Source of the DNA: Niastella koreensis GR20-10
GTDB lineage: Bacteria > Bacteroidota > Bacteroidia > Chitinophagales > Chitinophagaceae
Direction of reading: 5' to 3'
NCBI RefSeq assembly: GCF_000246855.1
Contig: NC_016609.1
Location: 4,340,001 to 4,404,000, forward strand
Length of the DNA stretch: 64,000 nt
Numbering within the stretch: the first letter of the stretch is position 1; each line of letters opens with the position of its first letter. Below, one piece after another: positions 20,274 through 40,882 of this stretch. A model generated the notes under the pieces. It searched no databases and was not told where the DNA came from. It saw nothing but the letters and a program-made list of their open reading frames with translations. The position numbers and the translations under genes are program-made.

Positions 20274-20930
20274 TCACATCCCCTGCACAAATCCGGTCAA
20301 ACTTTCATCCTGGCCCAGGTTCAATTTCTTTTTCAGGCGATAGCGGCTTACCCGCAAACTGTCCTGCGAAATACCTAACAGGGTGGCCATGTCTTTACTC
20401 GCCATGTTGAGTTTAATGAGCGAGAGCATGCGCAGATCGTTACTGGTGAGTTCTTCGCAATGTTTTTTCAGGTTGTCGAAAAACGGCTGGTGAAGCTGTT
20501 CAAAGGTTTCGCGGAATTCGTTCCAGTACTGGTCGTGGTTAAAGCTCTGGTTAATGTGCCGGATCAATTGCTGCAGCTGTTTCTTTTGGTCGCGTTTGTC
20601 GTCTTTTATTGGCGCGGGCCAGCGCTTCATTACTTTTACTGATCGCGTCGCGGTAGCGGCCGGTTCTGCGATAGATATCTCCCAGGTTATTAATCACCTC
20701 AATACCCGCCACCTGGTCGTTCGCCTGGTCATACAATTGCAGCGACTGGTTGAAATAATTCCAGGCGGAATCATATTTTTCCAGGTCTTCGTAAATACTG
20801 CCAATCTTCCTGGTTTCCCAGTTTATAATAGATAGATAATGCTTCGTCGTATTGTTTGCGCGCAACCGGCAGCTGGCGGTTCTGGTAATACTGGTCGCCC
20901 GAAACGATCATTCCTTTAAGCGCCAATATT
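20274..20930 (-). pseudogene. Broken TPR-LuxR-type regulator
   Basis: The minus strand encodes three pieces in different frames: an N-terminal TPR segment (GDQYYQNRQLPVARKQYDEALSIYY, frame change near 20825), a second TPR segment (GSIYEDLEKYDSAWNYFNQS and GDIYRRTGRYRDAISKSNEA, 20551-20865), and a C-terminal helix-turn-helix segment (20274-20630) with LRMLSLIKLNMASKDMATLLGISQDSLRVSRYRL. Intact Bacteroidota regulators of this type have more TPRs, a membrane helix and a coiled coil between; those are missing here. The gene is therefore truncated at the start, internally deleted and frameshifted twice. Confidence 0.75.
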
Positions 20931-21116
20931 CAATGGATCATTTACTCCAATGGCGCAGATTATTTGGTGAAAGTATTGCTGAACGAAAAGGAAACTTCAT
21001 TACCCATTTTAACAAAGCATTGGCCTTATTACAATTGGGAAGCAGTGAAGCAATATTACATGAAGAAATTAGAAAATATCGAATATCAAACCGCTGAATA
21101 TCGAACGTCGAAGTAA
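20928..21116 (+). pseudogene. C-terminal remnant of an unidentified enzyme, possibly a histidine-type phosphatase
   Basis: A plus-strand frame of about 62 codons ends at TAA 21114-21116 with protein-like composition (YLVKVLLNEKETSLPI, WPYYNWEAVKQYYMKKLE). It lacks a start and begins at the same point where the broken TPR gene ends, so the two pieces meet at a rearrangement junction near 20925-20932. It reminds me of the C-terminus of Bacteroidota histidine-type phosphatases, but that is a weak call. Confidence 0.4.
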
Positions 21117-21123
21117 AACTTCG
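21075..21123. repeat. Dispersed AATATCGAA-type element
   Basis: Repeated AATATCGAA words end in CGAAGT-aaa-ACTTCG, a perfect 6-bp hairpin (21109-21123), five bases before the fucosidase stop. Related words recur at 41945-42042 and 63944-63979, so this is one member of an interspersed family. Confidence 0.5.
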
Positions 21124-21127
21124 GCGC

Positions 21128-22519
21128 TCATTCCAGCTTAAATACGGCGCTATATTTAAGACCAGACTTATGTTGCCACTTTACCGGCACCTGTACTGTT
21201 ACCAGGTTACTGGCATATGTCCATTTTAATTTCTGTTCAGGCGCTGCCAGCAGTGTAACACGTTTTGGTTTTCCTGGTTTATTCACAGGTATTTGAATAA
21301 CGGTAGGCAATTCAACAGTTTCCTTTTCGGAAAGCCAGCAAGCATAGATCTTATTGCCGTCCTTTGACTGCGTATAATACAAGTTGTTAGTAGAATAAGG
21401 AGCAACTGGCCGGGAGGCATATATACACTCACCGTTGATAGCCATCCAGGCGCCTATTTCTTGCAATCGTTGATACACCACCGGGTCCCAATCGCCATTT
21501 CCGTCGGGGCCAACATTCAACAACAAGTTACCGCCCCTTGAAACGATCTTTACCAGCAATTCCAATATATGATGAGCGCTTTTATACTGATCGTTCTTAC
21601 TATAGCTCCATGAATTGCCCATGGTCATACAGGTTTCCCAGGGATATGTCAATGGCTTTTCTGGTACTTCCTGCTCAGGCGTGCTATAATTTTCATATTC
21701 GCCGGGTACGGTACGGTCTACCATTATTAATCCCGGCTGAAGTTTATTGGCCATAGTTGCAATACGTCGCATATTTATATCCATATTAAGCGGATCATTC
21801 TCTTTTTGCGAAGGACGCACCCAACCGCCATCGAGCCACAAGATATCTATCGGCCCATACCCTGTCATCAACTCTTCAATCTGGTTGTAGGTAAAGTCCT
21901 GAAATTTTTTCCAGCGATCGGGATATTTGATAGTGCTGTAATTAACATTATGATCTTTGGGTGGAAAATAGGGCCACCAGAAATTTTCGCTGTGCCAGTC
22001 GGGCTTTGAAAAGTAAGCGCCGGTCATAAAGCCTGCTGCGCGAAAAGCATCAAAGATCACTTTTGTTACATTACTATTGGGATTGTGGGAAAAGGGGGTT
22101 TGCGAACCGGTTATTTTATAATCGGTTTGTTTGGTATCAAACATACAAAACCCATCGTGGTGCTTAGTGGTAAAAACCACATATCGCATACCCGCTGCCT
22201 TGGCCGCCTTTACCCATTTCTCCGGATTGAATGCTACCGGGTTAAATGTTGTGGATAGATTTTCATACGCCTTTTTATATTCAAAATAATTATTAGCATA
22301 GGTGCCGGTGCGTGTTACCCAATCATCGGGGCAAATACTCCAGCTTTCCACTACCCCCCACTGACTGTAAGGGCCCCAATGCATAAACAGGCCAAATTTC
22401 TGATCCTGCCATTCAGCCAGTTTTTTAATCACCAGCGGATCTTTAGGCGGCACGTATTCGATTTGAGCATGCAATATGTTACAGGCTAAAAAAATAATTA
22501 CAGTTAATAATTGCTTCAT
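21128..22519 (-). CDS. Alpha-L-fucosidase (GH29)
   Basis: A 463-residue exported glycosidase with a Sec signal peptide (LLTVIIFLACNILHA, cleavage near residue 18). The GH29 TIM barrel is clear: WQDQKFGLFMHWGPYSQWG, YVVFTTKHHDGFCMFDT, and the nucleophile Asp230 in GPIDILWLDGGW. GH29 enzymes release alpha-L-fucose from glycan ends with retention. It is the last gene of the polysaccharide locus, 3 bp after the GH89-GH29 fusion, so translation is probably coupled. Its barrel differs from that of the fusion partner, suggesting distinct linkage preference. Confidence 0.95.
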   Translation of the reverse strand: MKQLLTVIIFLACNILHAQIEYVPPKDPLVIKKLAEWQDQKFGLFMHWGPYSQWGVVESWSICPDDWVTRTGTYANNYFEYKKAYENLSTTFNPVAFNPEKWVKAAKAAGMRYVVFTTKHHDGFCMFDTKQTDYKITGSQTPFSHNPNSNVTKVIFDAFRAAGFMTGAYFSKPDWHSENFWWPYFPPKDHNVNYSTIKYPDRWKKFQDFTYNQIEELMTGYGPIDILWLDGGWVRPSQKENDPLNMDINMRRIATMANKLQPGLIMVDRTVPGEYENYSTPEQEVPEKPLTYPWETCMTMGNSWSYSKNDQYKSAHHILELLVKIVSRGGNLLLNVGPDGNGDWDPVVYQRLQEIGAWMAINGECIYASRPVAPYSTNNLYYTQSKDGNKIYACWLSEKETVELPTVIQIPVNKPGKPKRVTLLAAPEQKLKWTYASNLVTVQVPVKWQHKSGLKYSAVFKLE

Positions 22520-22522
22520 GAT

Positions 22523-25500
22523 CTATGGTTGTAAAGTCAATTCAATAACCGGGATTTCGACATTCGGTTTTTGTGGCAATTTTATTTGAAGATCATTTGT
22601 ATTATCACCAACCGGTTGATATTTTATTTCTGAGTTATCATGCAGGAACTGCGCATATTTTATCTTCCCTTTATACCCGGACAATGTAAGCGTGGACTGG
22701 TCATATTGCATCAGGTGCAGGTATATTTTTTTAGTAACCGGGTTGTAGGTCAGCAATGTATTCTCAGGCGCTTTATATTCAGCCGGCGCCTGCGTACAGC
22801 CATAAATGGCCTGCTGATTATATTTCATCCAAACCCCAATGCTATCCAGGGCGTGAACGGCGCGATAATCAAAATATCCCCTGGCAGTGGGCCCTACATT
22901 AAGGATCAGGTTACCACTTTTGCTTACGGCTGTGATCAACAGAGTAAGCAGCTCCCTGTTCGATTTCCAACTGTTCTCGTCCCGGAAATACCCCCACGAT
23001 CCGGAGAAGGTCTGGCAGGTTTCAAACGGCATTCCGCCATATTCACTTTGCAATTCCGATGGTTTCACCTGTTCGGGGGTAGCAAAATCAGCGCCATCTG
23101 AATACTCATCGAGATCGAGCCGGTTATCAACAATAATACCGGGTTGCAGTTGCCGGATCATTTTCAACAACTCCACGGAACCCCAGTCGCTTTTTCCCTT
23201 ACCATGCCCGTTTGAATTGGGATAGGAGAAATCCAGCCACAGGATATCTATCTTTCCATAATTGGTTAATAATTCCCTGACCTGGTTATGCAGGTAAGCT
23301 TTATATTTATTCCAGTCGCGGCCTTTATTTATTTTGGCGTAATCTGAATCAGCTTCGCTTTTTGGTTGTAACGGGTGAACGCCATCAACAGTAAAATCAG
23401 GATGATGCCAGTCGATAAGAGAATAATAAAATCCTACCCTTATCCCTTCAGCCCTGAACGCATCTACAAACTCTTTTACCAGGTCGCGGTTGGCTTTGGT
23501 TTTGGTAGATTTATAATCTGTAAATTTTGAATCGAACAAACAAAAGCCTTCATGATGCTTGGTGGTCAATACGGCATATTTCATTCCGGCTGCCTTTGCC
23601 TGTTTCGCCCACGTTTTGGGATCGAACATATCGGGATTGAATGTATCAAAGTAAGGCTGGTATTGTTCGTTACTCATCCGTTCCCAGCGTTTCACCCATT
23701 CATGCCGCGCGGCCTGAGAATACAATCCCCAGTGAATGAACATACCAAAGCGATCGTGCGTCCACCAGGCCATTCGCTTTTCTTTTTGTTCGTGCGTTTC
23801 ATTCCCGATCTTCTTTTGGGCATGTGCTGTTTGTAATGGCAAAACTTTCCGTACTACTTTTTCCAGTGACGGATAAGGCTGAACCTCGCTTTTCACCTGC
23901 TCATTTTGGGTTACCCACTCCCGTTCCCAGGCAAAGAAATCAGGCGGAGTGACTGATTTACCTGCCAGGTTATTACGCAGGTAATCGAAATACAACTTCC
24001 ACCGCTGCTGGTAAAACGTGGTCATCATTCCGCCCCATTCTTTATAAGCATATTCATGTAGATAATCCTCCTGCCGGTTGTTCTCGCCCCAATAGGTGAT
24101 CAACATCATGGCATTGTGCAGGTTATTCTTTCTTTCTATAGGCGTATTGCCTGACCGCAAAGCCTGCTGCTGATAGCTGGTTAACCGGTAATACGAATGG
24201 CTATTAAGCAGTTCATTCGTGAGCGCATGCAGCGATAAAAATGCTTCGGCTGCCGCATTGAAGGCGACTGTGTTTTCTTCCTTATAGGCTGTTACCAGGC
24301 TGGCAAATACGGTATCGGCACGGTTTGATAATACCTGCCGTGTAAAATTGATGAGATCGATCTTATACGTTTCGCTGTTGCCAAATAAAGGTGCTGCTGC
24401 AGCAAACGCCTGTACCCCTTTTTCAAACAAGGCCGTATCATATCCTTTTTTCAGCTTACCCCAGCTGGAAACAGATTTTACCTGTAAAGCCGGCCGGGCA
24501 CATAAAATATTCTCGGGGGGCCCTTCCTGGTACCCGGGATTGCTGTAAATGGTTTGCAGGAACAATGTCCAGGCGGTGGCAATTTGGTCATTAGCCTTTC
24601 CATACCGCGCTTTCACATAATCATTGATCCATTTACCAGTTTCAACCGGTTGGTTATGCCACCCCAGTTCCAGCACCAGGTCGTAGGATGCCGGGTTATT
24701 ATTTATTCCTTCCGGCATAATACCCACGCCTTTCATGTATTCGCGAAACGGACCGGTAGCTGCCCGGTACACTTCACCGGCATATCTTTCCAGCTTGCCA
24801 TTCAAGCCCGGCCGCTCTCCGAAATTGTTTACACAACACCATATAAAGGGCGTGCCTTCGTACCCATTTCTTGTTTCCCAGTTGTTGGTATTCTCGCCAA
24901 ATAATTCCTGGATCAGCAAAGCAGACTTATCTGTTTCTGCCAGCAATTCTTTTTTCGGATTATCCTGCCATCCCTGCAATACCCAAATAGCGCCGGGAAA
25001 ATATTGTTGCATAGCCTTTTGTATATTGGCGCCGGCTTTCCCCAGGTTTACCCCATTTGTTATACCACCTTCATGAAAGGGATCACCCGAAAAAAAGCGG
25101 ATGTTCCTGCCATATAACTTTTTCGTTTCCTCGTAAAAAATACCGGCTACCCGGTCAAAAGCAGTATCGGTAGGGTCAAGTATAGCCGGACGAATAAATG
25201 CGCCCCAGTTGCCCTGTGTTATTACACGGGCTTTCGATTTGGTGTTGAAGTTATGCGGTACCATTCCATAAAAACCGGGCATCACCGGTTCAATGCCCAA
25301 TGCCTGCATGCGGGCGATCATTTTTTGCACCAATATTTTGCGACTATCGATCTGGCTTTGCGGCATAGGCCCACCCCACCCTTCAATATTACCCATCAGC
25401 CACCAGGCATTGTATGCAGGCCCGGTAATAAAATCGCTGGTCTCTTTTTCGCTGAACCCGGTGCGTCGTAAAACATTTTGCCAAACGGCTTCTTCCCCAT

Positions 25501-25966
25501 TAGCTACCAGCATCAGGTTTACTCCGTTCAATGCCATCCAATCCAATTCATGTTCCCAATCGCTCCAGCTGTAAAAGCTCATGGTATAATTATAGGTGCA
25601 ATAATTCAATGCATAGCGGTATTGCGACGCAGCATCTATTGTTACCGCTTCTGTTACCACCGGTAATGACGATACAGGAGATAAATTATCGCCCATGTGC
25701 GACATGGAGCGATGACAATAATATTTCAGGTACCAGTTTAACCCAACGGCAGCGGCATTGGGGCCGGTTGCCGCGATCATTATTTTTCCGTTCTTCGTTT
25801 GTAATTGAAAGGCCTCCTTTTTATCACAGGCTTCCATTTTTTTAAACGCCAGGTTATTTACCAGCCAGGACACTCTTCGTTTTGCCAATTGCATTACACC
25901 GTCAAAGTCGCCAGCCCAGGCACAACAAGGCAGTAACAACAATAAAACGTATATACTTTTTCGCAT
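22523..25966 (-). CDS. Alpha-N-acetylglucosaminidase-alpha-L-fucosidase fusion (GH89-GH29)
   Basis: A 1147-residue exported two-enzyme protein; ATG 25966 is used because the frame's first codon is TTG. After the signal (YVLLLLLPCCAWA), residues about 20-690 form a NAGLU/GH89 enzyme. Glu299 (DPFHEGG) and Glu419 (GIMPEGI) match the two catalytic Glu of human NAGLU (316, 446). Residues about 720-1145 form GH29: FGMFIHWGLYS, LTTKHHEGFCLF and nucleophile Asp912 in KIDILWLDFSY. The linker (about 704-717) reads VVRKVLPLQTAHAQ, which looks like a leftover signal peptide of a once separate fucosidase. The product would remove alpha-GlcNAc and alpha-fucose. Confidence 0.93.
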   Translation of the reverse strand: MRKSIYVLLLLLPCCAWAGDFDGVMQLAKRRVSWLVNNLAFKKMEACDKKEAFQLQTKNGKIMIAATGPNAAAVGLNWYLKYYCHRSMSHMGDNLSPVSSLPVVTEAVTIDAASQYRYALNYCTYNYTMSFYSWSDWEHELDWMALNGVNLMLVANGEEAVWQNVLRRTGFSEKETSDFITGPAYNAWWLMGNIEGWGGPMPQSQIDSRKILVQKMIARMQALGIEPVMPGFYGMVPHNFNTKSKARVITQGNWGAFIRPAILDPTDTAFDRVAGIFYEETKKLYGRNIRFFSGDPFHEGGITNGVNLGKAGANIQKAMQQYFPGAIWVLQGWQDNPKKELLAETDKSALLIQELFGENTNNWETRNGYEGTPFIWCCVNNFGERPGLNGKLERYAGEVYRAATGPFREYMKGVGIMPEGINNNPASYDLVLELGWHNQPVETGKWINDYVKARYGKANDQIATAWTLFLQTIYSNPGYQEGPPENILCARPALQVKSVSSWGKLKKGYDTALFEKGVQAFAAAAPLFGNSETYKIDLINFTRQVLSNRADTVFASLVTAYKEENTVAFNAAAEAFLSLHALTNELLNSHSYYRLTSYQQQALRSGNTPIERKNNLHNAMMLITYWGENNRQEDYLHEYAYKEWGGMMTTFYQQRWKLYFDYLRNNLAGKSVTPPDFFAWEREWVTQNEQVKSEVQPYPSLEKVVRKVLPLQTAHAQKKIGNETHEQKEKRMAWWTHDRFGMFIHWGLYSQAARHEWVKRWERMSNEQYQPYFDTFNPDMFDPKTWAKQAKAAGMKYAVLTTKHHEGFCLFDSKFTDYKSTKTKANRDLVKEFVDAFRAEGIRVGFYYSLIDWHHPDFTVDGVHPLQPKSEADSDYAKINKGRDWNKYKAYLHNQVRELLTNYGKIDILWLDFSYPNSNGHGKGKSDWGSVELLKMIRQLQPGIIVDNRLDLDEYSDGADFATPEQVKPSELQSEYGGMPFETCQTFSGSWGYFRDENSWKSNRELLTLLITAVSKSGNLILNVGPTARGYFDYRAVHALDSIGVWMKYNQQAIYGCTQAPAEYKAPENTLLTYNPVTKKIYLHLMQYDQSTLTLSGYKGKIKYAQFLHDNSEIKYQPVGDNTNDLQIKLPQKPNVEIPVIELTLQP

Positions 25967-25986
25967 CAACTAATAAGTTTTGATTT

Positions 25987-27765
25987 TTACTTTTTTAAAT
26001 AAGGTTGAATGGCTACGGCAAGTTTATCGTACCCAACAGCATTCGGATGCAATCCATCCCCAAATAATGATTCCTCAATTTTATGTTGCCTGTTCAACAG
26101 GGCCAAACCGGGATTTACATACTGTACATGTAACCGGCGGGCCAATGCGGCTATGCGGATGTTAAGTATCACAATACGTTTTTCCATAGCTCTGCGTGGC
26201 AATATGCCCGATAATACAATGGCGGCTTTAGGTTGACGGACCTTTATTGCGGTAATCAACTGCCGCAATCCTTCAGCAATTTCCACGTCTGAATTAATGG
26301 TTAAATTATTCGTGCCTGCCATTACCCAGATCTGAGCCGCGTTAAACCCATCCAGCTCATCGTGATATACGCGCCACAATATATTTTCAATGCGGTCCCA
26401 GCCAAACGCACCATTTCTTACGCCTGCCGGTTCCAGGTATTTATTCCACGAACCAGCACCACGGGTTAAGGGTGCTGAAGGTTGTCCACCCCAGTAATGA
26501 ATAATAGAATTGCCAAAGAAGATAATGCGGGGAGCATTGGTTTTATTTAAGACAATGATCTCGCTGTGCCTGGAGCGCCAGTTGTAATAGCCATCGCGGC
26601 TTTGCACAACCGGAATAGTAGTAGACAGCAGCCCGGCCGGTTCATTCAAAATATGGCGAATTATTTTTTCATAGGCCCGTGCATATTCCATCATACCCAC
26701 ATCATTTGGATGCACGCCATCTACCGTACTATATATTGATAAACCAATCTCTTTATTCGACAACAAATAAATACCCGAAATGCCGTCCCCCTTCATTTTA
26801 TCAAAACTGCGACGCAGTACTACGCTTGCATTCTCATAATCATGTTGTGCTGCGGTATCAATTATACCTGTTTGGGCGCCAACACTGTGTTCAACCAGCA
26901 AAACCGGCACGGCTGGTCTTTTTTCTTTTAATGCTTTTACCGCTGCAATAATCCTGTTTTCCAGCTCCTGCGCTGAAATACCGCTAAAGGCAGTAAGGTT
27001 GGGAAGACAATCCAGTACATATAAGCGGGCATCAATTTCATTCATCAATGCAATAACCGGTTGCTCTAACCGGCCTGATCCTGAAAAGCCTAAATTGATT
27101 AGTGGCCGGTCTAATTGCTGTTGTAGTAAAGCCGTCCAGGCCATGCCTGGCCGCGATGCACAAGCCCCCTGTGCAATGGAAGTACCATATACCACAATTG
27201 GCTTTTCGGGTGACAGAGGCATAAAATTAAATGAATGGTTATTGGGCACACCAATTGAAAGCCAGCTCACGGTATTATATAATGGCAGGTACAACCTGTA
27301 TTCATAATCCCGGCCCGGAAATTCGCTGCTCACCACCAGGTTGGAGAAACGATATTCAATGGTATCGCCAAACGAACGGCTTGATGGCGCCCACTTCCAT
27401 TGTCCATTGGGATCAATAGCATATAAGTCAACGCCACTTACACCGGTTGCGGGCATATGCGTCATTTCCAGGGCGCCTTTTACAACATACCGGACTACCA
27501 GGTTGGCAGCATTTGTTTTGAACTTTATATATAACCCGGCACTGCTGTGTGAGAGATTCCACACATTTGGATTAAGCGTTTTTTCTGCCCGTATAGGAAA
27601 ACGGTCGTACCGCGAGGCCACTTCCGCCGGCCAGGCTTGTCCTTCCACAACCGGGAAATTGCTGGCAGCCGGGTTTTGCCAGGTGTAGGGTTGCGCTATC
27701 TGAGCAAATGAAACCAGGCACCTGAAAAACAACACTGGAAAAATAATGTATAGTTTATAACACAT
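25987..27765 (-). CDS. Exported double SGNH hydrolase (probable carbohydrate esterase)
   Basis: A 592-residue exported protein (signal IIFPVLFFRCLVSFAQ) with two SGNH/GDSL hydrolase domains. Residues 25-180 are the GxDLY-type N-terminal domain (GVDLY at 111-115). SGNH domain 1 (about 190-370) has the nucleophile motif VVYGTSIAQG (Ser196) and DGVHPND (Asp349/His352). Domain 2 (about 400-590) has IIFFGNSIIHYWGG (Ser420), the MAGTNN block and DGLHPNAVGY (Asp570/His573). Both triads look intact. Such enzymes often remove acetyl groups from sugars. The start codon directly follows the stop of the GH20-like gene with no gap, indicating tight coupling. Confidence 0.88.
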   Translation of the reverse strand: MCYKLYIIFPVLFFRCLVSFAQIAQPYTWQNPAASNFPVVEGQAWPAEVASRYDRFPIRAEKTLNPNVWNLSHSSAGLYIKFKTNAANLVVRYVVKGALEMTHMPATGVSGVDLYAIDPNGQWKWAPSSRSFGDTIEYRFSNLVVSSEFPGRDYEYRLYLPLYNTVSWLSIGVPNNHSFNFMPLSPEKPIVVYGTSIAQGACASRPGMAWTALLQQQLDRPLINLGFSGSGRLEQPVIALMNEIDARLYVLDCLPNLTAFSGISAQELENRIIAAVKALKEKRPAVPVLLVEHSVGAQTGIIDTAAQHDYENASVVLRRSFDKMKGDGISGIYLLSNKEIGLSIYSTVDGVHPNDVGMMEYARAYEKIIRHILNEPAGLLSTTIPVVQSRDGYYNWRSRHSEIIVLNKTNAPRIIFFGNSIIHYWGGQPSAPLTRGAGSWNKYLEPAGVRNGAFGWDRIENILWRVYHDELDGFNAAQIWVMAGTNNLTINSDVEIAEGLRQLITAIKVRQPKAAIVLSGILPRRAMEKRIVILNIRIAALARRLHVQYVNPGLALLNRQHKIEESLFGDGLHPNAVGYDKLAVAIQPYLKK

Positions 27766-28908
27766 TTAATTCATAACCTCCTCTTTTCGTATCTGTGCAA
27801 ATACTGCTTTAAAGGTTTCTGCTGAAGGCAATTTTTTTCCATTACGGCCATAATAGGCGTCAATAAATTCTTTCGAATCTTCCCACATGGTAACAAATAC
27901 GCCCTGCATTCTTTCGGCAAGGGTAACAGCCCAGGGTGCGCGGGTGCCATCTTTACGCGCCAAACGAACCTGCGCTAACTGCGCCAGCGCAACTTCGGAA
28001 TTAGAACACGAACTGGGCAACACATTGAATCCTTTTATCGCAAAGTAGCCGGGTGTGGGCGGTGCACTTTCGTACTTCCAGTCGCAGATCATGATGTCAG
28101 TAGGTATCAGATCAATAGCGCGGAAAGTAGCGTTCATACTAGCCTGCCAGCCCAGGAGGTTGGTGGTTTTTCCATCAATCAACCGGTCGCTCCACATCCA
28201 CATCTGGCATTTCTTTTCTTTTAAATGATCGTGCAGCTTTGTGGCATATTCTGCAAACAGGGCAGCTTTATCGCGACCGCCGCAACGCGGACATTTTTCA
28301 TAACCCAAAATCCATACTTCATCCAACCCTACATGAAATGCATCGGCGCCGCATACATCGATCAGTTCATCCATCAGGGGAAAAATAGTTTTCAGCAGAT
28401 CGGGATGCGAAGGACAAAGGCTTTTACAATAAAAATCGAAAGGGCCTGCGTCTTTCCAGGGAACGGGTGGATTATAATCGGGCGATTCATCAAACTGCGG
28501 ATATTTTGCCAGCAGGGGATCTATGTGGTCGCGGTCCGACTGATGCCCCAGTAAATTCATTTTAGGTATGAACCGGATCTTTGCTTCTTTACAGGTCTGT
28601 ACAATTTGTTTCAATTGTTGTTCCGAAATAGCTCTTTCACCGGCCAGTTCAGGATGCGATTTAAACTTATAATTATAACGTATCCGCAATACCAGCGTAT
28701 TCACCCCTTCTTTGGGCAATACTTCTTTTATAAAACGGCAGAACTCCGGCACATCTTCAGGATGGGGTACAGTTAACAACATTGCTTTAACCGGTAACTT
28801 ATTCCATTCAAATTGTTCACTTGTTTGCGCCGATGCAAAATTGATAGCCGCTATCATTGAATAGAATAATAGCAGCGCTGAAAAAAAACAGGTTCTCGGA
28901 TATTTCAT
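27766..28908 (-). CDS. GH20-like beta-N-acetylhexosaminidase
   Basis: A 380-residue exported TIM-barrel protein (signal CFFSALLLFYSMIAAINFASA, cleavage near 28). The hallmark GH20 acid/neighbouring pair is present in FHVGLDEVW (Asp196, Glu197), with IRFIPKMNLLGHQ upstream and CPRCGGRDK and WMWSDRLID downstream. Length is short, as for single-domain GH20-like enzymes without the usual N-terminal GH20b domain. It probably removes terminal beta-linked GlcNAc or GalNAc. The call is family-level; substrate specificity is inferred from the neighbours. Confidence 0.82.
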   Translation of the reverse strand: MKYPRTCFFSALLLFYSMIAAINFASAQTSEQFEWNKLPVKAMLLTVPHPEDVPEFCRFIKEVLPKEGVNTLVLRIRYNYKFKSHPELAGERAISEQQLKQIVQTCKEAKIRFIPKMNLLGHQSDRDHIDPLLAKYPQFDESPDYNPPVPWKDAGPFDFYCKSLCPSHPDLLKTIFPLMDELIDVCGADAFHVGLDEVWILGYEKCPRCGGRDKAALFAEYATKLHDHLKEKKCQMWMWSDRLIDGKTTNLLGWQASMNATFRAIDLIPTDIMICDWKYESAPPTPGYFAIKGFNVLPSSCSNSEVALAQLAQVRLARKDGTRAPWAVTLAERMQGVFVTMWEDSKEFIDAYYGRNGKKLPSAETFKAVFAQIRKEEVMN

Positions 28909-28962: not shown

Positions 28963-30411
28963 TTACTGCTTCACTATCTCCGTGTCGCCACCGCCTCTCA
29001 GGGTAAGATCAACTGGTTTATTCGTTTTCCATGAGCCGCCGGTGAAATCAGGCATATCGATAGAATTGGAACGATGCGCCACCGACCATACACTGAGCGG
29101 AGTGACCGCACACCAGCTAGCCAGATCATATACATCCATATCTAACGGCAACCCGTTTCGCAAACAATCGATCATACGCCAGTCCATAATAAAGTCCATA
29201 CCGCCGTGACCGCCGATCTTTTTGGCCGCCTGCTCCACATGGCGGATCAGCTCGGGCGTGTATTGTTCTTCGAGTTGTTTCATTTTTGCATCGGAAACCG
29301 GCTCGTGTCCCAATGATATCCTGGCGGGTTCGGGGAACTTCTGCACAAACCCTTTGGTGCCGCTTATTGCATGAATACGGCTGTAAGGGCGGGGCGACGA
29401 TATATCGTGCTGCACCATGATGGTTTTTCCTTTATTGGTTTTAATAACGGATGTATTCATATTACCCCGGTACTGTTTGCCGGTGTACCGTTTATAATAG
29501 GGATCACCAGCCGCCAGTTTTTCAGCAAGCGCCTCCATCATAAAATCGTTCGACGACATAGAGGTCAGGTACTCCATTTTATCGCCCCGGTTAATGTTCA
29601 TGGCCTGCGCTACGGGTCCTAACCCATGGGTGGGATACAGGTTGCCGCTCTTCTGGTTCTCTTTCCAGCGCCACGCGCCCTCGCCGGCATAATCACCGGC
29701 ATTTTTCGGCGGTGCGCCAAACAAGCCATCCAGCAATGCATGTATATACGCGCCTTCACCATGTACCAGTTCTCCGAACACACCCTTTTGCGCCATACTG
29801 ATGGTAAGGGTCTCAAAAAAATCATAGCAGCAATTTTCGAGTTGCATGCAATGTTTTTTGGTACGCTCCGATGTTTCAACCAGTTGCCAGCATTCTTCCA
29901 GTGTGCGGGCGCCGGGCACCTCAACCGCCACATGCTTTCCATGTTCCATGGCATACATCGCTATGGGCACATGCCATTCCCAGGGCGTAGCTATATACAC
30001 CAGGTCGATATCATCCTGCTCACACAATTTCTTCCAGGCATAGTCATCGCCATAATACTCTTTAGCAGCAGGCCAGCCTGCCTGTTTCAATGTTTGCTGG
30101 TTGCTTTTAACCGCCGCTTCACGCACATCGCACAAGGCTTTTATTTCAACATTCTTAATATTGGTCATGCGGTTCACCGCCCAACTTCCTCTGCCGCCAA
30201 TGCCAACATATCCAATGCGCACTACCGGTATCTTAGGTGCCGCATAGCCGCACATATTGAATACCTGTTTCCTGTTCTTTGATTTATTGGCTGAGTCTAT
30301 TACGGCATTATGCAATGCATTCTCAGAAGCATATCCGCTTAGTGCGGGTAATAATAAGCCACCGGCAGCGGCTGTTGTATTTTTTAAAAAATTCCTACGA
30401 CTGAAACTCAT
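28963..30411 (-). CDS. GH109-like alpha-N-acetylgalactosaminidase (Gfo/Idh/MocA fold)
   Basis: A 482-residue protein with a Tat-like twin-arginine signal (MSFSRRNFLKNTTAAAGG). It has the NAD-binding motif GYVGIGGRG (residues 67-75) followed by the Gfo/Idh/MocA layout. The segment EVPGARTLEECWQLVETSE and HCMQLENCCYDFFE closely follow what I know of GH109 enzymes such as the Elizabethkingia blood-group A enzyme, which use NAD in an elimination-addition mechanism. Mature GalNAc-releasing activity is inferred. It sits among fucosidase and hexosaminidase genes, in keeping with attack on blood-group-A-like or mucin chains. Confidence 0.82.
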   Translation of the reverse strand: MSFSRRNFLKNTTAAAGGLLLPALSGYASENALHNAVIDSANKSKNRKQVFNMCGYAAPKIPVVRIGYVGIGGRGSWAVNRMTNIKNVEIKALCDVREAAVKSNQQTLKQAGWPAAKEYYGDDYAWKKLCEQDDIDLVYIATPWEWHVPIAMYAMEHGKHVAVEVPGARTLEECWQLVETSERTKKHCMQLENCCYDFFETLTISMAQKGVFGELVHGEGAYIHALLDGLFGAPPKNAGDYAGEGAWRWKENQKSGNLYPTHGLGPVAQAMNINRGDKMEYLTSMSSNDFMMEALAEKLAAGDPYYKRYTGKQYRGNMNTSVIKTNKGKTIMVQHDISSPRPYSRIHAISGTKGFVQKFPEPARISLGHEPVSDAKMKQLEEQYTPELIRHVEQAAKKIGGHGGMDFIMDWRMIDCLRNGLPLDMDVYDLASWCAVTPLSVWSVAHRSNSIDMPDFTGGSWKTNKPVDLTLRGGGDTEIVKQ

Positions 30412-33476: not shown

Positions 33477-35309
33477 TTACCAGCCCGGATTCTGAACCAA
33501 TGCCCGGTCTCTTTCCACGTCGCTTTGCACAATGGGGAACAGGTACATCCGGTCGTCCCAATATCTTTTTTGGAATAAGGTTCGCTGATAAAAACCGGTA
33601 AATGAAAAGCCCAGACCGGCATCATCGGCATTCACATTCATACCATAAATCGTTTGGTTTTCGGTCTTACCTAATAACAACCTTCTTACCAGCGTATAAT
33701 ACCGGTCGCCTTCAAAACACAATTCCACTTCGCGTTCACGCAAAATATGCTTACGCATCTCCTCTTTATTTCCTATTGCTGATGGATATACCGTTTCAAT
33801 ACCGGGAAGCCCCGCGCGGGCACGAACCAGGTTCAGATAATTTACAATATCTGCCTGGGAAGGATCGTATTCATTCAGCGCTTCTGCATAATTCAGCAAT
33901 ATTTCAGCATACCTGATCAAAATGTAGGGCCGGTAAGTACTTACATCATTACGAATATTATCAGAGGGATTAATTCTTTTCAACACATCGTACCCGGTGA
34001 TATTATTGGTGCCTGCGGATTTTTGTCCCGATTTACCATTGTAATACAATTCCACCCGGCCATTACCGTCTTTATTGGCATCGGATGAATAATAATTCTT
34101 ATCATCAACCGTGGGGGCCGGTAATACGGGGCGGCCGTTGTATTGGATATAGGCATAAAAGCGGGGTTCGCGGTTGGCATACATGTTCCAGTCGCCTTTT
34201 TTATGCCCCCAGCTATTTGAACCATTAGCAGCTGCAAACCCGGTTTCAACATAACCCGAGGCCGGATCATCGATCGTTCTTCCGTTGCTCATGCTAAATG
34301 CATCCACTACATTCTGCGTGGCGTTGTACATGTTATAACCGCCCGGGCCTGGAGAAGAACATTTCGTCCAGCCCCAGTACAACCAGTTATTAATGGAAAG
34401 GACAATTTCATTGTTCCAGTTGGTGAGGAAAACATTACGGCACGACAGGTAAGGATCAAATGTATTGCCGCCATCATCGAGGTTGGTGTATAATTTATAA
34501 GCATTCAGGTCGATGGTTGCTTTGGCTGCATCGGCGGCGGCTTTCCATTTAGAAGCATCGTATTGAGCAGGCGCCAGGGGGGTACCATCCTGGTTCTTCA
34601 ATGCTGCAAACCGGGCATTACCATTCCATAACGGACTGGCAGCCAACAAAGCCACCTGGGCTTTTACCGCCAGGCAGGCGCCTTTGGTTGGCCGGCCATA
34701 ATTGGCGGAGGAGCCCCAGGTAACCGGCAAGGCCTGCGCCGCAGTGTTCATAAGCTCATTGATATAAGCCACGCAGGTATCAAAAGGCGCTCTTGCATAT
34801 TGATTATAATCTTCGCTTTGGCTTAACACACCGGTGACCTTAACAAAGGGGCCGTATTGTTTTAATAATTGCCAGTAGAACCACCCTCTCAAAAAAGCAT
34901 TCTCGGCTTTATATTGCGCTTTCAGGTTGTCACTTAACTCAACTGCAGGCACCTTATCTATATTGCTTTCAAATACAAAGGTTTGCCTGATGCCAACATA
35001 ATAGGTTCCCCAATTATAAAAATAACCGCTGGCAGCACTCCAGTTGCCGGCTACCATTTGCCGCACGCCCACGCCACCAATGCATACGCTCGATTCATCG
35101 CTGGCGCCCATGGAGGCATAGTCGCCCCCATCGGAAGTGTGCATATATCCATAAATGTTGTACAGGTACGATTCGGCATTTGCCCTGGTTTGCCATATCA
35201 TATCTTCAGTTAACAGGTTATCCGGCTTTTTATCCAGGTAATAGCAGGATACCATTACAACAGGCATTAACAAAAACAGCATGCCTTTTATATATTTATT
35301 GTTAGTCAT
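33477..35309 (-). CDS. susD: SusD/RagB-family glycan-binding lipoprotein
   Basis: A 610-residue SusD-like protein with a lipoprotein signal (FLLMPVVMVSCYY, Cys22). The RagB/SusD region spans most of the protein, with the N-terminal helical TPR-like part (AYLYNIYGYMHT-like, GWFYWQLLKQYGPFV) and the C-terminal IRYAEILLNYAEALNEY and REREVELCFEGDRYYTLVRR signatures. It would bind glycan outside the outer membrane and form a lid on the SusC barrel encoded just upstream (22-bp gap). Confidence 0.96.
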   Translation of the reverse strand: MTNNKYIKGMLFLLMPVVMVSCYYLDKKPDNLLTEDMIWQTRANAESYLYNIYGYMHTSDGGDYASMGASDESSVCIGGVGVRQMVAGNWSAASGYFYNWGTYYVGIRQTFVFESNIDKVPAVELSDNLKAQYKAENAFLRGWFYWQLLKQYGPFVKVTGVLSQSEDYNQYARAPFDTCVAYINELMNTAAQALPVTWGSSANYGRPTKGACLAVKAQVALLAASPLWNGNARFAALKNQDGTPLAPAQYDASKWKAAADAAKATIDLNAYKLYTNLDDGGNTFDPYLSCRNVFLTNWNNEIVLSINNWLYWGWTKCSSPGPGGYNMYNATQNVVDAFSMSNGRTIDDPASGYVETGFAAANGSNSWGHKKGDWNMYANREPRFYAYIQYNGRPVLPAPTVDDKNYYSSDANKDGNGRVELYYNGKSGQKSAGTNNITGYDVLKRINPSDNIRNDVSTYRPYILIRYAEILLNYAEALNEYDPSQADIVNYLNLVRARAGLPGIETVYPSAIGNKEEMRKHILREREVELCFEGDRYYTLVRRLLLGKTENQTIYGMNVNADDAGLGFSFTGFYQRTLFQKRYWDDRMYLFPIVQSDVERDRALVQNPGW

Positions 35310-35331: not shown

Positions 35332-38300
35332 TTAAAATTGTGCTCTTACCCCCACGGTTATGGTACGGGCAGGCGGATAAGTTGCTCCGGAAGAGCCCAG
35401 TTCAGGGTCCCACAATTTGAATTTGGAAAAAGTGAACAGGTTTTGAGCCGCTGCATAAAAGTAAAGACTTGCAATACCGGCCCTTTTAAGAGAGGGTATA
35501 CCCAGATCGTAGCCGATGGAAGCCTGTTTTAACCGGCAAAAGCTGCCATCTTTTAACCACCAGGTACTGTTCTGGTAATTATTACTGCTTTGGTTCGATA
35601 CACTCAACCTGGGATAATCCACGTTCTGCACCGGGTTGTCTTTTGTCCACCTGCTGGTTACATTCGACAATACATTACCAGGGTACTGGCCAATACCGGC
35701 AAAGGGAACAATCCCTACGCCACCGGCAGCGCCATTTATACCGGCGATACCCGATCCGTTGGCCATAATGCCTACATCAGATACGCCCTGCAAGAATATC
35801 GAGATATCGAAACGTTTAACACCCACCGTAAAGCCAAGTCCATATAATAAAGCCGGGAAAGAAGATTTATCCAGATAACTCCAGTCATTGGCATCTACTG
35901 TACCATCGCCATTCAGATCGCGGTATTTTATATCGCCGGGCTGAATGAGCGCGCTTCCCAATTTTTGTTCGGCGCTTTTATCTATATCATTCTGATCAAC
36001 AAATAAACCCTGCGATGAATAACCGGTAAACTCGCCGAAACGGTGTCCTTCCCATTGCTGATAGGCATTGGTGCGTTTAGGCTGATCGGCATAAATGATC
36101 TTATTCTTTGCATAGGTGAAGTTGCCAAACAACCGTAATCGTACATTTTTACCAAACTTGTCATTGTATTCAATGCTACCATCCACACCTTTGTTTTGCA
36201 TCTCCCCCATATTGGCGTAAATACTGCTCAGCGAGTATCCGCCCACTGAAGAAATGGATTGCCGCAGGATCAATATATCTTTTCGTTTATCACGGAATAC
36301 ATCTGCTACGATATTTATCTTATTCAATAGTCCCACCTCAATGCCCAGGTTATCCTTGGTAGATTTTTCCCAACGCAGGTTCTCTACGCCAAACACACTC
36401 TCCGTAATACCGGAATAATAACTGGGGCCCAGCCCGAATGCAGTCGTATTGCCGCCTGAGATATAGGTTAAGTAACCAAACCGGTCGCCGTATCCTATTT
36501 GGTCGTTACCGGTAACGCCATGCGAGGCTCTTACTTTTAACAGATTTACCGTACCGGCCAGCGGATCAAAAAAAGATTCACGGGAAATTACCCAGCCAAC
36601 AGATACCGCAGGAAAAAACCCAAACCGCTCGCCTTTTTTAAAGTTTTCTGAACCGGTATAACCGGCATTCAATTCGGCAAGGTATTTATCGTTGTACGAA
36701 TACGTTATACGGCTGGCAAAGCTCTGGTTACGGTAAGGAATGGCATATTTTACACTGGATGCCGTACCGGTTACGCGGTTACGCATATTATACAACAGCA
36801 AACCGCCAAAACTGTGTGCACCGAAACTACGATCGTAAGTAATATTCCCTTCGAGGTACATGACCCGTTCCCCGGTAGAACTGGAAGAATATCCCAGGAA
36901 CTGGTTACCTGTTCTCACATGCTCATACACCAGGTTACCACTGCCATCTCTCGACCCTGTATACCACAGATCATTTGTACCAGTACGATTGTTATCAAAT
37001 TGACCGTAGGAATCAAAAGAAAAACGGGTCATGGCTGCCAGGCCTTTGGTTACGCCATCAAGCCGCTGATTTAAACTGATAATTGATTGTATGGTGGGCC
37101 TGAACTCTGTACTGTAGCCCGAATTCTGCACCAGGTTAAACGGGTTGGAACCGCCGTTGTTGCGGGGACCGGCCCATTTATCACCGGGATAAGAAACCGG
37201 AAATGCGGTCGGATTCGTTGCATAGGCTGCATACCAGATACTGGAAGCTGAATTACCCGGGTATCGGCTATTTACCAGCATGGCATCCAGGTTCAACGAC
37301 AACAGGGTGGTTTTGGTTACATTCACATCGACATTACTGCGGAAGTCGTACCGCTTGAAATTCAAATTGGGATTGTATCCGTTCACCCTGGTTACTTTAT
37401 AACTTCCATCCTGGTCGTAAAAAGAGGCGGACATATAATAACGCATGGCTTCACCGCCACCGCTTACATTTACATTCCCATTGTATAAGGGCGCCCAGTT
37501 TTTATAAATTGTTTTGATCCAGTTTACGTTTGGATAGAGGTACGGGTCAAGCCCGCTGGCTGTTTTCTGGATCACGTCATCACTGTATGCCGGCGTTTCG
37601 CCCATATTGGTTTTGGCTTCATTCAACAGCTTCATATAGGTTACCCCATCCAGCATCTTGGGTGTTTTGGTCAATCCCGTCATACCAGATTCCATTTTCA
37701 TGGAAATTTTCGGTTTACCGGCTACCCCTTTCCTTGTAGTAATGATCAATACACCATTGGCGCCCCTGGCGCCATATACGGCCGTGGCTGAGGCATCTTT
37801 CAGTAAAGAGATGGATGCCACATCTTCGGGATCGATATTATTGTAGGCGCCGCCAAAAGTGCTGTTTACGTCATCGCGCTGCACCCCGTCTATTATGATC
37901 AATGGCGACGTACCGCCGGTGAAAGTGCCAATACCGCGAATGGTAAAAGTGGGATTATCATATCCCGGTTCGCCACCGGTTTGCATGGAAATGATACCAG
38001 CCACTTTTCCGGCGAGCGCATTGGTCAATGAACGCACCGGGGTACGCATATCCTGCATATTGACCGAGGTTACCGAACCGGTAACGCTTATCTTTTTTTG
38101 TTTTCCATAAGCTACCACCACGGTTTCATCGAGCCCTTTTTCTGCCAGCTTCATCACCACGGCAAAAAAAGTTCTATCCCCTATTCTAACTTTCTGGGGT
38201 TCGTAACCCGTGTAAGTGATCGTTATAATATCATCAGGCAATACCTCTTTAAGAAGGAATACACCGTCTGCGTCTGTTTGGGTGCCACGCCCACCTGGTA

Positions 38301-38781
38301 AACTTACGGAGGCCTTTGCAAGGGGTTCGCCCTGCTCATTAAGCACCCGGCCTGTTATATCAACTGGCAGGGGCGTATTGGCCAACTCCGGCTTAGTTTC
38401 CGGCGTTGTACTTTCTATTTCCTTAATGGCAACGGTTTTTCCAATAACCTCGTAGGTAAAGGGCTGATTGGTGAACACTTTTTTCAGCGCTACATCCAAC
38501 GGTTCGTTTTGTACAGAAATACTTACCGGCCGTGCTTTTTGCAACAGCTTGTCTTCGTACCAGAACTGGTACCCGGTTTGTTTTTTGATTTGCTGGATTA
38601 CTTTTTCAAGGGGCGCATTTTTTTCTGATAAAGAGACCTTTTGCGCATACCCATTGGCACAAACCTGTAAACAGGTCGCCAATAAAAGAATGGCTGTCAG
38701 CTTCATGATCTGCAGTGTTTTGGTTGTTCGGCTTCGCCCAGGGCTTTCCATGCGAATAACCGAATGAATTTCTAAATCCAT
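35332..38781 (-). CDS. susC: SusC/RagA TonB-dependent receptor with STN domain
   Basis: A 1149-residue outer-membrane receptor; ATG 38781 is chosen over TTG 38808. A signal sequence of the MKLTAILLLATCLQVCA type ends near residue 47. An STN (secretin/TonB short N-terminal) domain at about 48-105 (SLSEKNAPLEKVIQQIKKQTG) is the part that talks to FecR. A CarboxypepD-like beta-sandwich follows (ITGRVLNEQGEPLAKASV), then a DETVVVAYG TonB box, a plug (ITGSVTSVNMQ-like, SLLKDASATAVYGARGANG) and the 22-strand barrel. It imports oligosaccharides and, with the sigma/FecR pair, senses them. Confidence 0.96.
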   Translation of the reverse strand: MDLEIHSVIRMESPGRSRTTKTLQIMKLTAILLLATCLQVCANGYAQKVSLSEKNAPLEKVIQQIKKQTGYQFWYEDKLLQKARPVSISVQNEPLDVALKKVFTNQPFTYEVIGKTVAIKEIESTTPETKPELANTPLPVDITGRVLNEQGEPLAKASVSLPGGRGTQTDADGVFLLKEVLPDDIITITYTGYEPQKVRIGDRTFFAVVMKLAEKGLDETVVVAYGKQKKISVTGSVTSVNMQDMRTPVRSLTNALAGKVAGIISMQTGGEPGYDNPTFTIRGIGTFTGGTSPLIIIDGVQRDDVNSTFGGAYNNIDPEDVASISLLKDASATAVYGARGANGVLIITTRKGVAGKPKISMKMESGMTGLTKTPKMLDGVTYMKLLNEAKTNMGETPAYSDDVIQKTASGLDPYLYPNVNWIKTIYKNWAPLYNGNVNVSGGGEAMRYYMSASFYDQDGSYKVTRVNGYNPNLNFKRYDFRSNVDVNVTKTTLLSLNLDAMLVNSRYPGNSASSIWYAAYATNPTAFPVSYPGDKWAGPRNNGGSNPFNLVQNSGYSTEFRPTIQSIISLNQRLDGVTKGLAAMTRFSFDSYGQFDNNRTGTNDLWYTGSRDGSGNLVYEHVRTGNQFLGYSSSSTGERVMYLEGNITYDRSFGAHSFGGLLLYNMRNRVTGTASSVKYAIPYRNQSFASRITYSYNDKYLAELNAGYTGSENFKKGERFGFFPAVSVGWVISRESFFDPLAGTVNLLKVRASHGVTGNDQIGYGDRFGYLTYISGGNTTAFGLGPSYYSGITESVFGVENLRWEKSTKDNLGIEVGLLNKINIVADVFRDKRKDILILRQSISSVGGYSLSSIYANMGEMQNKGVDGSIEYNDKFGKNVRLRLFGNFTYAKNKIIYADQPKRTNAYQQWEGHRFGEFTGYSSQGLFVDQNDIDKSAEQKLGSALIQPGDIKYRDLNGDGTVDANDWSYLDKSSFPALLYGLGFTVGVKRFDISIFLQGVSDVGIMANGSGIAGINGAAGGVGIVPFAGIGQYPGNVLSNVTSRWTKDNPVQNVDYPRLSVSNQSSNNYQNSTWWLKDGSFCRLKQASIGYDLGIPSLKRAGIASLYFYAAAQNLFTFSKFKLWDPELGSSGATYPPARTITVGVRAQF

Positions 38782-38827
38782 AACTTTGTTTTGTTTTGGG
38801 TTAAGCAATAAACAGTCAATGTTCGTT

Positions 38828-38916: not shown

Positions 38917-40164
38917 TTAGGCCATCACCACCAGCCTGTTACCTTCAATGCGAAAATTCACTTTACTCACTTCCAGCAAATGAAGCAACTCAGAAAGCCG
39001 GGCATCCCTTGAAATACCGCCGGTAAAACTGCGTTGCGGAATTGTGCCTTCATACACCACCTCAACATTATACCACCGGGCCACCTGCCGCATGATGCTT
39101 TTGATATCAGCCCTTTTAAAAGCGGTGAACCCATTCTTCCAGGCCATGGCCAGTTCAATATCGGCATCATCGATCTTTTTTAATTGTCCCGAAGTGAACA
39201 ACTGCGCCTGTTGCCCGGGTTGTAATAATGCTTCCTGTTTTTTTCCTGTTGATCTGCCATTGCCCGCAGCCCACTCACCGCTCACTATCCGAACTTTCCC
39301 TTCCAGCAAAGTTGTTTTCGTAGCCTCTTCATCGTTGTAGGCGCTAACATTAAAATGGGTTCCCAGCACTTCGATCATGCTCCTGCCCGCTTTTGTTGAG
39401 GAGGGAATAATAACTTTAAATGGCATAGCCGGGTTTTTCGCTACTTCAAAATAGGCTTCGCCGGTCAATTCAACATTCCGTTCATTACCGGTGAAAGCAA
39501 CCGGGTAACGAATAGAGGACGCAGCGTTCAACCATACTTTACTGCCATCGGGCAGTACCAGTTGATACTGTCCGCCTTTGGGTGTTGCCAGCATGTTCCA
39601 GGTAACAGCCAGGTCCTTTCCACCAACAGGTTTATAGGCTACTTCTCCATTCCTTTTCTTTATTATACTGACATTTCCCTGTTGCGACAATATGCCGTTC
39701 TGTGCACTGTCTAACACAATGGCTGTTCCATTAGCCAGAGTTAAAACGGCTTTGTTGCCACCAGGTAATACATCCCCAACAGGCTGCTGCACCGGGTTTT
39801 CATTATCAGCGACAGGTTGTTTGGTTAATCGGTTCATGAACCAGAAACCACCCAGCCCCAACGCCAGAACTATTGCCGCAGCTGCTGCAACCCATTTCCA
39901 CCCAAAGCGGCCGGGGCTACCCAAAGGGATTATGCCAGCATCTGTTTTTTGTGTAACCTGCTGAAAGATATATTCCCAGTCAACATCCTCTGCCACACTC
40001 AACGGTTGCAACACCTCGTATTCGGCTTCCATCATTGTTTCAAGCTGTTCGCGGTTTTGGGGCTGCGCTATAAAGGCAAACAATTCCTGCAGTTCTTCGA
40101 GGGTACATGCTTTTTGCGTGTACTGCCTGAGCAGGTATTGCATCCGGTTTGTATTGATAGACAT
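38917..40164 (-). CDS. fecR: FecR-family anti-sigma factor
   Basis: A 415-residue inner-membrane regulator. Residues 1-85 form the cytosolic sigma-binding part, about 88-110 a membrane helix (WKWVAAAAAIVLALGLGGFWF), about 190-300 the FecR domain (PKGGQYQLVLPDGSKVWLNAASSIRYP) and about 340-413 a DUF4974 domain (ADIKSIMRQVARWYNVEVVYE). In the family it holds an ECF sigma factor until the STN domain of a loaded SusC signals. Its place between sigma and susC fits. Confidence 0.95.
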   Translation of the reverse strand: MSINTNRMQYLLRQYTQKACTLEELQELFAFIAQPQNREQLETMMEAEYEVLQPLSVAEDVDWEYIFQQVTQKTDAGIIPLGSPGRFGWKWVAAAAAIVLALGLGGFWFMNRLTKQPVADNENPVQQPVGDVLPGGNKAVLTLANGTAIVLDSAQNGILSQQGNVSIIKKRNGEVAYKPVGGKDLAVTWNMLATPKGGQYQLVLPDGSKVWLNAASSIRYPVAFTGNERNVELTGEAYFEVAKNPAMPFKVIIPSSTKAGRSMIEVLGTHFNVSAYNDEEATKTTLLEGKVRIVSGEWAAGNGRSTGKKQEALLQPGQQAQLFTSGQLKKIDDADIELAMAWKNGFTAFKRADIKSIMRQVARWYNVEVVYEGTIPQRSFTGGISRDARLSELLHLLEVSKVNFRIEGNRLVVMA

Positions 40165-40270: not shown

Positions 40271-40882
40271 TTACAGGGCAAAATTCCCAAAAAGACTGTA
40301 GCTTATCCAGCATAATGCGGATACCAGAGTAGCATAATGCGCGAGATGATCTTTTATATGCTTTAATATTTCAACCAGGATATTCTTTATCCTGCTTTTG
40401 GAGAGATCTAACCGGGCAGCTATTTCTTCATGGGTAAATCCCTGCTCACGGCTTAGTTTAAAGATCGTTTGACGTTGAATGGATAGCCGGCTTATGGCCT
40501 CATCAATCAGCCGCTGGCTTTCCTGCGCCTGTAATATGGCTTCAGTGGGATTATCAACATGTGATACATTCAACCAAACCTGCTGAAGCAACTGCCTGTC
40601 GCGGGCCAGCCTGGTTAAATGGTTCAATGTTTTATTACGTGCGATGGTGTATATATATTTACCAGGGTATTCAACATGCAACAGGCTGGTGCGGGATTCC
40701 CATAATTTAGTGAACACATCCTGCACAATTTCTTCTGCATCTACTTTTGAATGGGTCAATTGCAATACAAAGGCATACAACCGTAGCTTGTACAGGTCAA
40801 ATAACTGCCTGAAGGCTAATTTATCCCCATTGGCCACTTGTGCCAGTAATTCCCGATCGGTATATAAATTATCCAATGGCAC
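40271..40882 (-). CDS. ECF RNA polymerase sigma factor
   Basis: A 203-residue ECF sigma factor with GTG start at 40882. Sigma region 2 spans about 12-85 (LFDLYKLRLYAFVLQLTHSKVDAEEIVQDVFTKLWE), region 4 about 125-178 (AISRLSIQRQTIFKLSREQGFTHEEIAARLDLSKSRIKN). A C-terminal hydrophobic tail (YATLVSALCWISYSLFGNF) is unusual for a soluble factor but recurs in Bacteroidota members and may tie it to the membrane. It heads the locus and should direct transcription of the susCD module when FecR releases it. Confidence 0.95.
   Translation of the reverse strand: MPLDNLYTDRELLAQVANGDKLAFRQLFDLYKLRLYAFVLQLTHSKVDAEEIVQDVFTKLWESRTSLLHVEYPGKYIYTIARNKTLNHLTRLARDRQLLQQVWLNVSHVDNPTEAILQAQESQRLIDEAISRLSIQRQTIFKLSREQGFTHEEIAARLDLSKSRIKNILVEILKHIKDHLAHYATLVSALCWISYSLFGNFAL

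Follow-up and report, generated by a model that had tools for sequence, protein, structure and literature searches.

The window, the 64,000-nucleotide stretch from 4340001 to 4404000 of the Niastella koreensis GR20-10 genome analysed here, holds a polysaccharide utilization locus (PUL) that encodes, in order, a SusC-like receptor, SusD, an NHL/TIG protein, a beta-helix protein, a GH109-type protein, a GH20-like protein, an SGNH hydrolase, a GH89-GH29 fusion protein and a separate GH29 protein, GH29-b (Table 1). The fusion gene belongs to this locus. Further upstream, ORFs 38917-40164 and 40271-40882 have homologues in relatives, and those in a Niastella soil metagenome-assembled genome (MAG) scored as FecR and Sigma70 in Pfam. 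In the window, two further genes (41204-41938 and 42082-42978) are found upstream of the locus, and their counterparts in N. caeni, Niastella sp. OAS944 and N. vici DJ57 lie beyond the GH29 end; this opposite placement indicates that either the locus or the gene pair has moved. The GH20-like gene sits between the GH109 and SGNH genes, at the place where N. caeni has a GH123 gene. The GH20-like protein had no match among the compared ORFs of the relatives, and the GH123 of N. caeni had none among the window ORFs of the region.

Table 1. Positions of the genes and sequence features in the window.
Feature	Position	Strand	Basis
Separate second GH29 gene (GH29-b), 3 bp past the fusion	21128..22519	-	ORF, Pfam
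GH89-GH29 fusion gene, 1147 aa + stop	22523..25966	-	ORF, Pfam
GH29 part, residues 717-1147; first residue is the old +1 Q717; nucleophile candidate D912	22526..23818	-	Pfam; 6gn6 alignment
Remnant of the GH29 signal peptide, PLQTAHA (residues 710-716), homologue of LLQTARA in G006 GH29-a; low-confidence stretch 711-716 within	23819..23839	-	Alignment, AF2 model
Seam, TTG codon 709; TTG at both edges in unfused G006	23840..23842	-	Window-G006 alignment
GH89 part, residues 1-709; E299 and E419; C-terminal tail helix 701-708	23840..25966	-	Pfam; 2vc9/4a4a alignment; AF2 model
Signal peptide at the GH89 N-terminus, MRKSIYVLLLLLPCCAWA/GDF, cleavage site by eye	25913..25966	-	Sequence, hydropathy
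SGNH/GDSL acylhydrolase, upstream of the fusion, same locus	25987..27765	-	Pfam
GH20-like protein	27766..28908	-	Pfam
GH109-type protein	28963..30411	-	Pfam
SusD	33477-35309	-	Pfam
SusC-like TonB-dependent receptor	35332-38808	-	Pfam

The fusion chain is a single open frame (22523-25969, reverse strand) of 1148 residues counted from an upstream TTG. The ATG at 25966 was taken as the start, giving 1147 residues, and residue numbers are counted from it. The secreted GH89 (NAGLU) half comes first and the GH29 half second. PF12971 (NAGLU_N), PF05089 (NAGLU), PF12972 (NAGLU_C) and PF01120 (Alpha_L_fucos, 305.2 bits) were all above their curated cut-offs, and NCBIfam assigned no family to any of the four proteins tried. 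The chain has two catalytic domains and SusC/SusD encoded nearby, the arrangement of a multicatalytic PUL enzyme. The N-terminal signal peptide of the GH89 half reached a hydropathy maximum of 2.71 over 11 residues and is, as judged from sequence, the sole full export signal of the fusion.

The GH89 half resembled CpGH89 (PDB 2vc9, 4a4a), an alpha-N-acetylglucosaminidase, in sequence match and in the catalytic Glu pair. In the alignment to both structures, Glu299 and Glu419 lined up with the two Gln of 4a4a, which is given as the E483Q/E601Q double mutant of CpGH89 (PMC8225759). The matched CpGH89 chains span GH89 only, with no GH29 partner seen, unlike the fusion. For the GH29 half, the best-scoring solved relative was 6gn6 (E 9.7e-122), which we take to be the Paenibacillus thiaminolyticus alpha-L-fucosidase isoenzyme 1, a single enzyme unlike the fusion. 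The title of a paper by Kovalova et al., cited in PMC10154630, names a hexamer with active-site complementation. Asp912 lined up with the Asp of WFDFSY in 6gn6 and closes strand 908-912 of the AF2 model, taken as beta4; the conserved GH29 nucleophile is described as an Asp at the end of strand beta4 (PMC10154630). Glu965 in ATPEQ aligned with a Glu of 6gn6, in a family where GH29-A acid/base residues are described as aligning poorly in sequence (PMC10154630). The original prediction had placed both enzymes in one chain, named Glu299, Glu419 and Asp912 and noted a second GH29 gene after 3 bp, and the frame, the four Pfam domains, the structure alignments and the ORF of GH29-b agreed with it throughout.

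The relatives compared were Niastella sp. OAS944 (G007), N. caeni (G002), N. vici DJ57 (G008) and the Niastella soil MAG (G006), which is 61% complete and has GH89 as a 164-aa fragment at a contig end. In G006, 9697 bp separate GH89 from GH29. This interval holds a Sigma70-type factor, FecR, SusC- and SusD-like genes (named from their match to the SusC/SusD of the window), a DUF4959/5126/5000 protein and a DUF4998/5013 protein, the last two being lipoprotein-like. N. caeni has the same module order between the enzymes, plus a second GH89 (NAGLU-b). Between N. caeni and G006, five intervening genes (FecR left out) had 75.1-78.6% nucleotide identity and three flanking enzymes 77.6-81.9%. Because the intervening genes are as diverged as the flanking enzymes, the interval was probably already in the common ancestor of N. 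caeni and G006.

N. vici has no such module between the enzymes and kept NAGLU-b, whose ATG lies about 10 bases after the stop of NAGLU-a, the first GH89 (L033 15040-15130); we regard this arrangement as the unfused end point of a similar loss. A 1905-aa open frame of N. vici was rejected as a fusion, as its ORFs show three genes, GH89 (711-aa frame), a second GH89 and GH29. The second module is absent from three of the five Niastella loci (window, OAS944, N. vici), and two of these three are fused. A GH29-b homologue comes after GH29-a in N. caeni, G006 and N. vici. Among the 150 of 176 candidates scored in the window genome, nothing closely resembled the second SusC of G006 (60% identity at best), and relocation of the lost module to another place in that genome was rejected on this ground. 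Neither half had a close relative in G005 or G009, two neighbours of the window on the species tree, where matches were 34-36% for GH89 and at most 42% for GH29.

A linker, VVRKVLPLQTAHAQ, is present between the two halves. In the unfused G006, GH89 ends in RKVLY and a stop, and GH29 starts MYKIKKIAVFILSLLLLQTARA/QKKIGNETHE; the window protein reads RKVL-PLQTAHA/QKKIGNETHE across the seam. In the DNA, GH89 of G006 terminates CGGAAAGTATTGTATTGA and the sequence for its 22-residue GH29 signal peptide contains TTATTGCTATTACAAACAGCCCGTGCCCAAAAG, and the window has CGGAAAGTTTTGCCATTACAAACAGCACATGCCCAAAAG at the seam. The window similarity tracks GH89 of G006 as far as TTG and GH29 of G006 from TTG onward, and this TTG encodes Leu in frame in either gene. 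As a sign of microhomology, a TTG of 3 nt is weak. Window and G006 are identical at 30 of the 33 nt that run from TTGC to CAAAAGAAG (hand count on the alignment), so the AxA-Q at the seam is not chance; a chance motif was ruled out by this homology to the GH29 signal peptide of G006. Hydropathy at the seam was 0.71, while three intact GH29 signal peptides gave 2.66, 3.27 and 3.74.

The original prediction of a fossil signal peptide in the linker was borne out, as the second part of the linker is homologous to the end of the G006 GH29 signal peptide. Relatives with two separate genes, which it had named as a result against the fusion, were seen (N. caeni, G006, N. vici), yet they favour the fossil reading because those genes keep the whole signal peptide. 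Its proposal that two exported enzymes fused through a lost stop held for the fusion; simple stop loss is probably wrong, with a module standing between the enzymes in N. caeni and G006.

Since the module stands between the enzymes in N. caeni and G006, the preferred reading of the seam is a deletion of about 9.7 kb, one of its edges falling among the final GH89 codons and the other within the signal peptide of GH29. We consider the fusion a multicatalytic exo-glycosidase created by this deletion, at a probability of roughly 0.87. In the ancestor, GH89 (NAGLU-a) would have been the last enzyme of one PUL, followed by a second module (ECF sigma, FecR, SusC, SusD and two lipoprotein-like genes) with GH29-a and GH29-b at its end. 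The deletion would have joined the TTG Leu before the last sense codon of GH89 in frame to the TTG Leu in the GH29 signal peptide. If the ancestor resembled G006, about 9.75 kb would have been lost including the gene ends (our own sum). The GH29 signal peptide would have lost its start and hydrophobic core, and its last residues would remain as the short hinge (L)PLQTAHA. Both enzymes would reach the periplasm through the GH89 signal peptide, in one chain, at 1:1, under control of the first locus. From family knowledge, the fusion would act there as an exo-enzyme on imported glycans with alpha-GlcNAc and alpha-fucose, beside the GH109-type and GH20-like partners. If both activities work, one polypeptide may strip two caps off the same glycan end, as had been predicted, and the coupling may bring a benefit.

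Alternatively, a stop loss or a small deletion could have fused directly adjacent genes, and the module would have entered N. caeni and G006 later. Chitinophaga sp. CF418 and C. ginsengisoli have separate GH89 and GH29 genes 25 bp apart, and a small deletion would be possible from such a layout if the lineage of the window never had the second module. However, this origin demands insertion of the same module at the same place twice, and the module genes are as diverged between N. caeni and G006 as their neighbours. G006 is the sister of the window in the gene trees, and GH89 of both Chitinophaga lacks the C-terminal tail that the window GH89 retains. An adjacent-gene origin is thus unlikely.

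A search of relatives, which the original prediction had suggested, found the same pair fused in OAS944. This is its own in-frame fusion of 1122 aa, with a different seam in which WVKQHEQL is joined to QIGNET and both the GH89 tail and the AxA are missing. The gene trees paired the window with the unfused G006 (support 100 for GH29-a, 99 for GH89), and a grouping of window and OAS944 without G006 was rejected by the AU test (p 0.0008 for GH29-a, 0.00014 for GH89, 0.0002 for both). In the rpoB+gyrB tree, OAS944 fell outside the clade of window, G006, G009 and G005 (support 100; 99 for the clade plus OAS944). G006 stood next to the window with a support of 68, from a 555-nt rpoB piece only. Two fusion events are likely because the trees reject the fused genes grouped apart from the unfused G006, and separate events in the window and OAS944 are the simplest account. 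A single old fusion common to both would need G006 to have been restored to separate genes by gene transfer. The same two genes are joined in both, and the OAS944 seam EQLQIGN could contain two signal-peptide residues (LQ). Against it stand the AU tests, the differing seams, and the complete signal peptide and orthologous intervening genes of G006, and we hold one shared event to be quite improbable.

The AF2 model of the fusion, made from a 28-row alignment, had a mean pLDDT of 81.2 and a pTM of 0.63, with both halves largely modelled. The GH89 tail formed the helix 701-708, residues 711-716 (LQTAHA) had pLDDT below 50, and the GH29 half opened with the helix 725-737. Thirteen further segments, several in the GH29 half, were likewise below 50, with a total of 116 residues, so the scar does not stand out by low confidence alone. 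With these other loops below 50 and a pTM of 0.63, domain placement is undefined in the model. The persistence of AxA-Q and a low-confidence stretch at the seam could suggest that the old AHA/Q site is still cleaved, the fusion then being processed into two separate enzymes. Signal peptidase I needs a hydrophobic core. This core is gone from the seam, and OAS944 is fused without such a site, which makes cleavage very unlikely. An assembly or sequencing artefact is barely credible, as the window genome is a single contig of 9,033,684 bases, another assembly (OAS944) has its own in-frame fusion of the same pair, and assembly collapse was rejected because no direct repeat of at least 18 bp was found in 20500-28000.

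Among the five Niastella loci, dN/dS was 0.035 to 0.173 in 19 of 20 pairs. GH29-a gave 0.104 for window-G006 and 0.055 for window-OAS944, and GH89 gave 0.076 for window-OAS944; the 20th pair, GH89 of window-G006, gave 0.29 on the 164 codons of the G006 fragment. Polarised synonymous/nonsynonymous changes in GH29-a were 13.5/7.5 in the window and 14.5/6.5 in the unfused G006, with no relaxation relative to G006. For the GH89 fragment they were 4/3 and 4/5, respectively, too few to judge. On these substitution patterns, both halves of the fusion look to be under purifying selection.

The fused protein matched at least 25 of 195 sampled family genomes (evidently a sample without OAS944) at E <= 1e-140, and among these matches both halves were covered only in the window's own genome. 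Among 394 sampled family genomes, the GH89 domain was found in at least 120 frames from at least 73 genomes (hand count). Six of these frames had at least 900 aa, with the partners GH29 (window, OAS944), GH123 (G601), GH35 and GH92 (G764) and alpha/beta hydrolase (G153, G074). Among 395 sampled phylum genomes, at least 33 frames were found in at least 26 genomes, four of them with at least 900 aa: the window, G541 (GH123), G214 (CHB_HEX/PA14) and G424 (N-terminal Exo_endo_phos). The 39 named loci included one with GH89 and GH29 in one frame, L041 (= G007), and one with GH89 and GH123, L051, whose frame runs off the contig end.

GH89-GH123 fusions were seen at L134 4722-8507 (+) (G601), L130 87-3992 (-) (G541) and L051 9989-13618 (+). 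Like the window fusion, they join GH89 at or past its C-terminal tail to another glycosidase; unlike it, the partner is GH123 and the seam has no AxA-Q remnant. Support around them in the GH89 protein tree (read without row G000_2nd) was mostly low, 32 to 66, with one node of 90, and GH123 was perhaps joined to GH89 more than once. GH89 stood with an alpha/beta-hydrolase (esterase-like) domain at L136 1864-4965 (-) (G153) and L137 2954-5965 (+) (G074). At L135 2764-10905 (-), genome G764 has a 2713-aa chain with GH89, GH35, GH92 and Laminin_G_3 in one frame.

Tentatively, GH89 may be a hub of repeated fusion in Bacteroidota. Its C-terminal tail would take on enzymes encoded next to it, namely GH29 (two cases in Niastella), GH123 (perhaps on more than one occasion) and, on a different branch of GH89, GH35-GH92 or an esterase-like domain. 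Niastella deletions of the second SusC/SusD module would then turn tandem loci into a multicatalytic enzyme whose linker is a signal-peptide scar. A multi-enzyme particle with GH89 outside could result if the GH29 half still forms a hexamer, as in its closest solved relative.

Multicatalytic PUL enzymes of Bacteroidota are already established, for example BeCE15A-Rex8A, in which, as in the fusion, a short linker connects two catalytic domains of one PUL within a single chain, and for such enzymes synergy is described as not always seen (PMC8417218). In the fusion, by contrast, both halves are members of families of exo-glycosidases, and living relatives allow the fusion event and its scar to be read. 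The titles and abstract openings from a targeted literature search held no GH89-GH29 and no GH89-GH123 fusion, and those among the matches listed held no GH89 fusion with GH35/GH92. The origin of multicatalytic enzymes usually has to be inferred. In this case the unfused sister genes, the lost interval, the seam codon and the signal-peptide remnant are all readable, and the OAS944 fusion of the two genes, which has a different seam, offers a natural replicate. The case makes it testable whether selection favours the coupling of two enzymes or their control by a single promoter.
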